From: Oscillospiraceae bacterium
GTDB lineage: Bacteria > Bacillota > Clostridia > Oscillospirales > Oscillospiraceae
Assembly: GCA_015067885.1 (NCBI GenBank)
Contig: SVLO01000005.1
Coordinates: 1 to 64,000 of the forward strand
DNA: 64,000 nucleotides
Direction: 5' to 3'
The notes below the pieces were generated by a model. It worked only from the letters and a program-made list of their open reading frames with translations, searched no databases and was not told the DNA's origin. Every line of letters begins with the position of its first letter. Positions within the stretch are counted from its first letter, which is position 1. Of this stretch, positions 14,153 to 17,211 are shown in pieces. Position numbers and translations under genes: made by a program.

Positions 14153-15844
14153 ATGCTTTCTCTGCTCCACATCGAGAATATCGCGGTCATTCAGTCGGCG
14201 GACATTCGCTTTGAGCCGGGGTTCAACGTGCTGACCGGCGAGACCGGCGCGGGTAAGTCCATCGTCATCGACGCCATCGGCGCCGTGATGGGGGAGCGGA
14301 CCAGCCGGGACCTGATCCGCACCGGGGCCAACGGGGCCAGGGTCAGCGCCGTGTTCTGCGCCCTGCCCGCGCTTGCCTGGTTTGGGGAGAACGGTGTTTC
14401 TCCCGACGAGAACGGCGAGCTGCTGCTGGAGCGTGAGCTGCTTGGCGACGGACGCAACGTCTGCCGGGTCAATGGTCGTCCCCTGACCGTGGCCCAATTG
14501 AAGCTGCTGGGCCGTCAGCTTTTGAACATTCACGGCCAGCACGACGGGCAGCAGCTTTTGGACCCTGCCTGCCACTTGGACTATTTGGACAGCTTCGGAC
14601 AGACCGGGGCTCTGTTGGCGGAATACGCCGGGCAGTATCATGCTATGGCGGATATCCGCCGTCAGTTGGACGGCCTGCGCATGGACGAGGCGGAAAAGGC
14701 CCGCCGTGTGGATACCCTGACCTATCAAATTGGGGAGCTGGAGCGTGCCAACCTGACCGCCGAGGAGGACGAGAGCCTCACCGCCCGGCGGGATTTACTG
14801 CGCAACGCCGGCCGCATCATGGACGCGGTGGAGGCGGCGTACCAGGCCCTGTCCGGGGACAACGACCGGGGTGCGGTGGAGCTGCTGGCCGACGCCCAGC
14901 AGGCTCTGTCCTCCGGTAGCCGTGTCAGCGAGGAGCTGGCGAAAATGGGGGAGAAGGCGGCGGAGCTGCGCTATGCCGCCTATGATTTGGCCGAGGAAAT
15001 TCGTGACCTGCGGGACAGCTTTGAGTCCTCCGCAGGAGAGCTGGACCAAATCGAGGGCCGGCTGGACCTCATCTATCGGTTGAAAAAGAAGTACGGCTCC
15101 ACCGTGGACGAAATGCTGGAATTTTTGGACCGCAGCCGACAGGAACTGGAGCAGATCCAGTACGCCGACGACACCATCGCCCGGCTGGAGGGACAGCTCT
15201 CCAGGGCGCTGGAGCAAGCCAAGGGGGCGGCCCGAAAGCTGTCCGAGGCTCGCAAGGCGGCGGCGGTGACCCTGCAGGGGCGTATTGAGGACGAGCTGTC
15301 CCAGCTGGATATGCCCAAGGTGCGCTTTATGGCGGATTTCGCCGAGAAGGCGGGGGAGACCGGCCTGGACGAAACGGGCATGGATACGGTGCAGTTTCTC
15401 ATGTCCGCCAACGTGGGCGAGGAACTCAAACCCATCCACAAAATTGCCTCCGGCGGCGAGCTTGCCCGCATCATGCTGGCCCTGAAGAACGTGCTGGCGG
15501 AGAATGAGCAGGTGACTACCCTTATCTTTGACGAGGTGGACACCGGCGTGTCCGGCCGGGCGGCCCAAAAGGTGGCCCGGAAGATGTCCGATGTGGCCCG
15601 GAGCAAGCAGGTGCTGTGTGTGACCCATCTGCCCCAAATCGCCGCCATGGCGGACAGCCATTTCTGCGTGGAGAAGGGGGAGGCTGACGGCCGCACCTTC
15701 ACCGCCGTGCAGCAGTTGAATGACGAGCAGCGCTGCCGGGAGCTGGCCCGGCTGACCAGCGGCGACCTGCTGACCCCGGCGGCCTTGCAGGGGGCGGGGG
15801 AGATGCTGGCCCAGGCGCGGGAGTATAAGGGTACTCACCGGTGA
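14153..15844 (+). CDS. recN: DNA repair protein RecN
   Basis: SMC-like ATPase (563 aa) that acts early at double-strand breaks. Walker A is GETGAGKS at residues 29-36; long coiled-coil arms fill about 150-380 around a short central region with GQHDGQQLL before it; the ABC signature is ASGGELARIMLALK and Walker B is LIFDEVDTGVSG. It follows argR after a 20-base gap with GGAGGGATCGGG before the ATG, and is followed at once by a tiny membrane ORF. Confidence 0.96.
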   Translation: MLSLLHIENIAVIQSADIRFEPGFNVLTGETGAGKSIVIDAIGAVMGERTSRDLIRTGANGARVSAVFCALPALAWFGENGVSPDENGELLLERELLGDGRNVCRVNGRPLTVAQLKLLGRQLLNIHGQHDGQQLLDPACHLDYLDSFGQTGALLAEYAGQYHAMADIRRQLDGLRMDEAEKARRVDTLTYQIGELERANLTAEEDESLTARRDLLRNAGRIMDAVEAAYQALSGDNDRGAVELLADAQQALSSGSRVSEELAKMGEKAAELRYAAYDLAEEIRDLRDSFESSAGELDQIEGRLDLIYRLKKKYGSTVDEMLEFLDRSRQELEQIQYADDTIARLEGQLSRALEQAKGAARKLSEARKAAAVTLQGRIEDELSQLDMPKVRFMADFAEKAGETGLDETGMDTVQFLMSANVGEELKPIHKIASGGELARIMLALKNVLAENEQVTTLIFDEVDTGVSGRAAQKVARKMSDVARSKQVLCVTHLPQIAAMADSHFCVEKGEADGRTFTAVQQLNDEQRCRELARLTSGDLLTPAALQGAGEMLAQAREYKGTHR

Positions 15845-15858
15845 AAGGGGCGAACATC

Positions 15859-15936
15859 ATGTTTTTGCCATTGGGACTTATCGTTTTGCTCGTTGTTGGC
15901 GGCATTGTGGCCTATATCATCATCCAAAGCCGCTGA
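15859..15936 (+). CDS. 25-residue single-span membrane peptide behind recN
   Basis: Too short for the ORF track. ATG at 15859 reads MFLPLGLIVLLVVGGIVAY and ends in IIIQSR, a single hydrophobic helix with a short positive tail. AAAGGGG lies 8 bases before the ATG, and the recN stop is only 14 bases upstream, so it would be translated from the recN mRNA; a GTG at 15841 would add six residues. Function unknown; similar short membrane peptides can regulate larger membrane proteins, but nothing here proves expression. Confidence 0.5.
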   Translation: MFLPLGLIVLLVVGGIVAYIIIQSR

Positions 15937-15943
15937 AACACCC

Positions 15944-15971
15944 TTGACAAACCAAAAACAGATGCTATAAT
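15944..15971 (+). promoter_or_regulatory. Promoter of the T-box leader
   Basis: A perfect TTGACA -35 and a perfect TATAAT -10 are separated by 16 bases, immediately before the T-box stem I. This is the strongest-looking promoter in the window and sits just after the recN operon. Confidence 0.85.
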
Positions 15972-15984
15972 CTGCTTGATACAT

Positions 15985-16245
15985 CCTTGCGTTGATGAGG
16001 AGGAGTAGCGCCGCAGATCCTGCGTAGAGAGCCGTCCGGCCGGTGAAAGGACGGAGAGGAAACGGCGTGAATACACCTCGGAGCAGCCGCCTGAACCGCG
16101 TTTGCGCAGTAGGGCAGGCCGGGTGCGCCCGTTACCGCGTGGGAGTGCGCCGCACTCCGTAAGGCCGCCACCGTGAGGTGTCGGCGACCAGAGGTGGTAC
16201 CGCATTTCATGCCCTCTGTCCGCAAGGACGGAGGGTTTTTCTTAT
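15985..16245 (+). promoter_or_regulatory. T-box riboswitch, probable tyrosine (UAC) specifier
   Basis: A leader RNA that senses uncharged tRNA and lets transcription continue when charging is low. Stem I is recognisable: GAGG (15997) pairs with CCTC (16076) and CGCC (16009) with GGCG (16064), leaving an internal loop whose 3' strand reads TGAATACA; the codon before the conserved A is TAC, tyrosine. AGAGAGCC and GGTGAAAGGACGG follow family patterns. The T-box sequence GGTGGTACCGC is at 16193-16203 and the terminator CCCTCTGTCC/GGACGGAGGG with a T run is at 16212-16241. Tyrosyl-tRNA synthetase lies second downstream, which agrees with the specifier. Confidence 0.9.
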
Positions 16246-16263
16246 GAAGGGAGCGATTGTTTC

Positions 16264-17118
16264 ATGACCAAACAGCAAAAGGGCACCCTGCTGGTGTTCC
16301 TGGCGTCCATTTTCTACAGTCTTGGCGGCATCTGCATGAAGGGCATCCCCTGGAGCGGCATGGCGGTCAACGGCGGCCGCACCGCCATTGCGGTAGCAGT
16401 CATGGCAATTTATATGTTGCTGACCCATCAGAAGCTGCGCTTTAACCGCTGGATCTTCCTGGGGGCGGTGATGGTGTCCTGCACCAACATCCTGTTCGCC
16501 GTAGCCAACAAGATGACCACGGCGGCCAACGCCATCGTGCTGCAGTACACGGCCCCCATTTTCGTCATCGTGCTGACTGCCGTCTTTATGCGCAAGCGGC
16601 CCGGTGGTTTGGACCTGGCGGCCTGCGCCGTGGTGTTCAGCGGCGTGATCTGCTTCTTTGTGGAGAGCCTGTCCGGCGGCGGCCTGACCGGCGATATACT
16701 GGCGCTGATCTCCGGCGTGAGCTATGCGGTGGTCTTTATGCTCAACGACCTGCCCGGCGGCGACCCGCTGTCCTCGGCCTTCTTCGGCCACGTGATGAGT
16801 GCGGTGATTGGAATTCCGTTCATCTTCCGGGAAACGGACTTCGGCACCACCTGCATGGTAAGTATGCTGGTGCTGGGCGTGTTCCAGGTGGGCTTTGCCT
16901 TTATCTGTTTGGGCGAGGGCCTGAAAACCACCCCCGCCGTCACCGCCAGCCTGGTGTCCGGGCTGGAGCCGGTGCTGAACCCCATTTTGGTGGCGGTGTT
17001 CCGTCCCGGCGTGGATGAAATCGGTTTGGTTTCGCTGGTCGGCGCGGTGATCGTGGTCGGCGGCGTGATCGGATATAACGTTCTGCTGGCAAAGCGTGAA
17101 CAAAAAATTGCTGCGTGA
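16264..17118 (+). CDS. EamA/DMT-family transporter under T-box control
   Basis: 284-residue inner-membrane protein of the drug/metabolite transporter superfamily with ten predicted helices in two EamA repeats (for example LLVFLASIFYSLGGICMKG at the N-terminus and VVSLVGAVIVVGGVIGYNVLL-like helix at the end). GAAGGGAG precedes the ATG. It is the first gene behind the probable tyrosine T-box, so it may move tyrosine, a precursor or another aromatic compound; that substrate is inference from regulation only, as EamA proteins carry many substrates. tyrS follows after 93 bases. Confidence 0.85.
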   Translation: MTKQQKGTLLVFLASIFYSLGGICMKGIPWSGMAVNGGRTAIAVAVMAIYMLLTHQKLRFNRWIFLGAVMVSCTNILFAVANKMTTAANAIVLQYTAPIFVIVLTAVFMRKRPGGLDLAACAVVFSGVICFFVESLSGGGLTGDILALISGVSYAVVFMLNDLPGGDPLSSAFFGHVMSAVIGIPFIFRETDFGTTCMVSMLVLGVFQVGFAFICLGEGLKTTPAVTASLVSGLEPVLNPILVAVFRPGVDEIGLVSLVGAVIVVGGVIGYNVLLAKREQKIAA

Positions 17119-17127
17119 ATGATCCCC

Positions 17128-17172
17128 CAGTCACCGCGGGGCGGTGACAGCCCCCTTTGTCAAGGGGGCCTT
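17128..17172. repeat. Double-hairpin intergenic palindromic element
   Basis: Two adjacent hairpins, GTCACCGC/GCGGTGAC with a 3-base loop and GCCCCCTT/AAGGGGGC with a 4-base loop, fill the gap between the EamA gene and tyrS. This GTGACAGCCCCCTTTGTCAAGGGGGC-type layout matches dispersed palindromic elements I know from Oscillospirales genomes. It lacks a T run after the second stem, so it may be a weak terminator or an mRNA-stability element. A worn copy may lie at 6278. Confidence 0.6.
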
Positions 17173-17211
17173 AAGAGGTAAAAAATTTATTTGATATAAG
17201 GAGAATGAACA

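Follow-up and report, generated by a model that had tools for sequence, protein, structure and literature searches.

A tyrosine-specific T-box riboswitch almost certainly regulates a two-gene operon that encodes an EamA-family transporter (hereafter EamA) and the tyrosyl-tRNA synthetase, and EamA itself is somewhat likely to serve tyrosine supply. The elements follow one another in the order recN, a 25-aa peptide, promoter, T-box, terminator, EamA and tyrS (Table 1). The first-pass annotation had proposed a T-box followed by EamA and tyrS; Pfam PF00892 and TIGR00234 bear out this order and its coordinates, and a covariance-model search with RF00230 recovers the leader at full length with a score of 94.8 bits (E 1.6e-19), above the gathering score of 93. 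The same leader was recovered a second time when the whole genome to which the operon belongs was searched. A sigma-70 promoter precedes it; shuffles of the whole region contain a mean of 0.8 promoter-like sites. The terminator hairpin folds at -21.3 kcal/mol (z = -5.98), and the presence of this competing terminator places the T-box in class I.

Table 1. Features of the T-box-EamA-tyrS region.
Feature	Position	Strand	Description or evidence
recN	14153-15844		Upstream of the T-box promoter
Sigma-70 promoter	15944-15971	+	TTGACA-16-TATAAT, TG before the -10 (extended -10), hexamers 12/12
T-box leader	15983-16219	+	Rfam RF00230, full length 1-219
Specifier codon UAC (tyrosine)	16072-16074	+	Sequence, alignment, calibration on T-boxes of the same genome
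T-box bulge UGGU	16195-16198	+	Complementary to the ACCA end of tRNA-Tyr
Intrinsic terminator	16211-16236 (hairpin), T run to 16241	+	5' arm overlaps the antiterminator
EamA-family (DMT) transporter, 284 aa	16264-17118	+	Pfam PF00892
EamA-tyrS gap	17119-17211	+	Two short inverted repeats and the tyrS ribosome-binding site
tyrS, tyrosyl-tRNA synthetase, 408 aa	17212-18438	+	TIGR00234, 413.9 bits; Pfam

No terminator-like site was found on the + strand of the gap between the two genes. The gap is about 30-45 nt in the closest relatives and about 50-60 nt longer here. The inverted repeats at 17130-17148 and 17150-17169 are possibly a small inserted repeat; a second perfect copy of them was not found within the window, the whole stretch of 64,000 nucleotides that we analysed. 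On the other side of the leader, positions 15859-15936, between recN and the T-box promoter, encode the 25-aa peptide (MFLPLGLIVLLVVGGIVAYIIIQSR), which is predicted to form a single membrane helix. Similar peptides occupy the same place in two other loci (L015 and L016) and are absent from the other nine loci scanned.

The specifier loop GAATACA lies at 16069-16075 and reads directly as GAA-UAC-ACC (16069-16077). We aligned 75 distinct leaders from relatives, which precede either EamA–tyrS or tyrS by itself, and the codon column is UAC in all of them. The -1 frame reads AUA, UUA, GUA or CUA and the +1 frame ACC, ACA or ACG; because both of these frames vary while UAC is invariant, neither can be the conserved codon and the leaders are therefore tyrosine T-boxes. 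The UAC specifier is thus no chance reading, and the assignment made in the first-pass annotation stands, the specifier not falling on a different codon. UAC accounts for a fraction of 0.99 of the tyrosine specifiers in TBDB (PMC7778990).

The reading was further calibrated on the T-boxes of the same genome, of which there are 13, using a spacing rule (the codon, five bases, then [CG]GA) and reading the loci by eye. The rule agrees with the downstream gene at eight other T-boxes with an easily named target, namely valS (GUC), ileS (AUC), thrS (ACC), alaS (GCC), cysE-cysS (UGC), two TrpX-like ABC loci (UGG) and a leuA-like gene (CUG); for the hisS and glyS T-boxes it yields no clear specifier. 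Two Trp T-box (UGG) loci of the genome, L003 and L005, are very similar and each precedes a gene for a TrpX-type ABC substrate-binding protein. Another T-box (L009, C14:11231-11440), read by the same rule as UUC (Phe), directly precedes the gene of a 431-aa MFS-like transporter with no synthetase in view, making this protein a possible phenylalanine transporter.

ARAGORN identifies tRNA-Tyr in six relatives with the anticodon GUA, the discriminator A and the end ...CTCCTCC-A-CCA, and the discriminator A fits the UGGU bulge of the leader. Two exact patterns did not find tRNA-Tyr in the genome itself, which is 87% complete. By analogy with the known T-box mechanism, uncharged tRNA-Tyr would pair through its GUA anticodon with UAC and through its ACCA end with UGGU. 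The antiterminator would then form and the RNA polymerase would read through 16211-16241 into EamA and tyrS, as expected of a class I (transcription-attenuating) tyrosine T-box controlling both genes.

To estimate how widely this arrangement is distributed, we compiled 64 genomes of the genus together with samples of 301 genomes of the family and 394 of the order, and read the loci for the T-box motif, EamA and tyrS. Within the genus, relatives of EamA are present in 57/64 genomes (a few with distant paralogues only) and tyrS likewise in 57/64. In a maximum-likelihood tree of 120 EamA proteins, all EamA sequences associated with a T-box fall into a single clade (support 100/99). This clade has 75 rows, 68 with an upstream T-box, five with tyrS and no upstream T-box and two with neither; an upstream T-box is present in 68/73 of its family loci, spread over 12 genera of the single family Oscillospiraceae. 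In two of the T-box rows tyrS is not visible, the sequence stopping at or soon after EamA at a contig end. Overall, the T-box–EamA–tyrS gene order was found in about 70 relatives.

In a collection of 80 named records, which overlaps the first set of loci, there are 62 complete T-box–EamA–tyrS loci reading UAC, three cases at contig ends, five records with tyrS and no upstream T-box motif and ten with neither. Among them are Flintibacter muris, Pseudoflavonifractor capillosus, P. phocaeensis and Lawsonibacter MAGs. As judged from the phylogeny, the arrangement has a single origin followed by later losses. Two loci from another family of the order (L141 and L142) carry EamA without T-box or tyrS, and their position nested inside the clade suggests that EamA moved alone by horizontal transfer. 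A search of the family loci with 30-41% identity, of the closer relatives outside the clade and of the order-level loci turned up no EamA relative downstream of a T-box with a different amino-acid specificity; orthologues behind T-boxes for unrelated amino acids, which would have spoken against the original proposal, were thus not found.

EamA matches PF00892 in two stretches with 94.9 bits, above the cut-off. An AlphaFold model built from 32 relatives (pLDDT 84.5, pTM 0.83) has the ten-helix DMT fold, its best PDB matches being DMT structures. The closest of these is the aromatic amino-acid exporter YddG (5i20; TM about 0.76 over the whole length), and LicB, a choline importer, is among the others. 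The 5i20 chain is also reached by sequence with a diverse profile (E 1.6e-4), denoting weak homology. The two proteins share the DMT fold but are only about 20% identical, and the YddG model NF050091 of NCBIfam scores 24.5 bits (E 1.7e-5) against a curated cut-off of 300 bits, so EamA falls outside the equivalog; unlike YddG, it is also encoded in a tyrS operon led by a Tyr T-box.

Members of the T-box clade are 50-60% identical, and about 60 residues do not vary across 32 sequences. Residue 18 in TM1 is Tyr in 73/73 family members of the clade and Phe in 20/21 relatives outside it. We considered Tyr18 as a substrate determinant and set it aside as a lead only, for it persists in members that have no T-box: all 78 relatives of the named collection with a readable motif carry it, the T-box-less ones included.

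We also looked at the genes surrounding EamA relatives outside the clade, naming them by eye from their translations. In five loci of another family of the order (L143-L146 and L148) the EamA relative directly follows L-serine deaminase, precedes a flavin-reductase-like gene, or both, L146 being named from its downstream gene only. In L098 and L102 the relative lies behind a MetY-like enzyme. The YddG-like fold and these amino-acid gene neighbours make an amino-acid transport role plausible for the EamA lineage, with a substrate that may differ from clade to clade.

We propose that a ten-helix DMT carrier from an amino-acid-handling lineage entered the tyrS operon a single time, in a forebear of some of the Oscillospiraceae, and that its likeliest role is the uptake of tyrosine or of something closely related, for instance a different aromatic amino acid or a precursor that can be exchanged. 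Whether the EamA of this tyrosine-starvation operon does carry tyrosine or a closely related compound appears to us evenly balanced. Such transport would probably run inwards, uptake being favoured over tyrosine export because EamA would be induced by tyrosine shortage. The most specific form of the proposal, in which the DMT/EamA protein is induced by starvation and, expressed together with TyrRS, imports tyrosine (aromatic amino acids), is tentative and on balance doubtful.

One explanation for the same gene order is that the T-box serves tyrS, and that EamA was captured by the operon and benefits from or tolerates its expression while carrying an unrelated substrate. Since the operon contains tyrS and no clear Tyr T-box–EamA unit without tyrS was found among the loci examined (the few candidates being contig ends), tyrS alone would fully explain the T-box. 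The many variants of the operon point in the same direction. EamA has been lost several times with T-box–tyrS intact, as in four genomes (G015, G016, G043 and G052) in which the T-box stands directly before tyrS. In Flavonifractor sp. An92 (L050/L169) and a relative (L180) the T-box lies between EamA and tyrS, hence downstream of EamA and out of reach of it; a small zinc-ribbon gene separates it from tyrS in L050. A DUF4240 gene separates EamA from tyrS in L026, L031, L040 and L081 (Pfam checked on the L031 copy), and a cupin (L045), a zinc ribbon (L058) or a 144-aa membrane protein (L025) does so elsewhere. These losses, relocations and insertions, together with the four sensor losses described below, show T-box–tyrS to be the stable core, with EamA as a frequent but dispensable partner. 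The apparent transfer of EamA alone to another family and the serine deaminase and MetY-like neighbours of its outside relatives add to the case for a passenger.

Against such a passenger role, EamA keeps the T-box-proximal place in all 68 T-box-led loci of the family, across 12 genera, while the other genes that come and go between EamA and tyrS are patchy. The strong conservation of the protein also argues for more than a tolerated passenger, and both the EamA-family proteins of known role and the gene neighbours of the relatives point to amino acids. Weighing these, we regard capture with an unrelated substrate as a serious possibility that is nevertheless less than even.

Four further loci, L022 (G032), L027 (G024), L085 (G027) and L090 (G010), lack the T-box sensor and retain the promoter and the CCCTCTGTCC...GGAGGG-TTTT hairpin, which, with the sensor missing, comes to lie almost at the 5' end of the transcript. 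In the EamA tree they are spread out, each next to relatives that have the sensor. Genome G013 (L015, L076) has two tyrS genes, each behind its own Tyr T-box, and EamA accompanies only one of them.

We addressed whether gain and loss of EamA is linked to tyrosine auxotrophy and found the comparison uninformative, as tyrA is nearly universal in the genus. It is present in 55/64 genomes, among them the present one and the four named above that have no EamA, and those without it are mainly incomplete. Because EamA-less genomes also have tyrA, gain and loss of EamA do not track auxotrophy, and the wide presence of tyrA means that tyrosine import is not obviously needed. No compensating Tyr T-box transporter was found among the 28 T-box loci of the EamA-less G016 and G052 (three of them without the motif and left unread); the only clear UAC specifiers there precede tyrS.

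Alternatively, EamA may act in the manner of YddG and expel phenylalanine, a D-amino acid or a toxic tyrosine analogue, maybe in exchange for tyrosine, so that TyrRS is neither starved by competition nor mischarged. The adjoining tyrS makes control over the substrates of TyrRS plausible, the nearest solved fold is that of an exporter, and the characterised amino-acid carriers of the EamA family are mostly exporters (PMC11005379). Exporting aromatic amino acids during tyrosine starvation would however be costly, and DMT importers such as LicB do exist; we consider export or exchange improbable.

The leader resembles the known tyrosine T-boxes (RF00230) upstream of tyrS in its Stem I with specifier loop, its UAC, its UGGU bulge, its antiterminator/terminator switch and the presence of tyrS in the operon, and differs from them in the transporter gene that stands between T-box and tyrS. 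A literature search that covered part of the T-box reviews found no publication joining EamA and T-box. YcbK of B. subtilis is an EamA-family protein of the rtpA-ycbK operon (Trp T-box). If YcbK is indeed EamA, that operon too would have an EamA gene downstream of an aromatic amino-acid T-box, with another amino acid and another partner gene. A T-box controls rtpA, and there is a TRAP site on the ycbK transcript (PMC11255114). C. difficile also has a tyrS T-box (PMC11477304).

Wels et al. 2008 found specifier and function to agree in every case that had been verified, and on that basis annotated transporters of seven families, with NhaC and NSS members as predicted Tyr T-box transporters (PMC2494555). 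The present case is alike in having a transporter under a Tyr T-box whose annotation comes from the specifier; it differs in that DMT/EamA is not among the seven families and the transporter is not alone (PMC2494555). Annotation of this kind is strongest for a transporter alone behind a T-box, and no such EamA case was found here. The first-pass annotation had EamA moving tyrosine or a precursor and took the riboswitch as real functional evidence for this. What survives is a conserved coupling to tyrosyl-tRNA charging (68/73 loci, one origin, 12 genera); the transport claim does not follow from it, as tyrS by itself accounts for the T-box. The riboswitch evidence is real but only moderate in view of the passenger genes, the EamA losses and the outside relatives beside serine deaminase or MetY-like genes. 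As a general caution, the specifier of a T-box before a synthetase operon says little about a companion transporter unless that transporter also occurs on its own under a T-box of this kind.

EamA proteins are numerous, and for most of them no substrate is known. The conserved link to tyrosyl-tRNA charging gives a concrete and easily tested substrate hypothesis for a DMT protein, in a lineage of common gut bacteria that comprises Lawsonibacter, Flintibacter, Pseudoflavonifractor, Flavonifractor and relatives. An importer, if that reading is true, would belong to a superfamily in which the bacterial amino-acid carriers are known chiefly for export.
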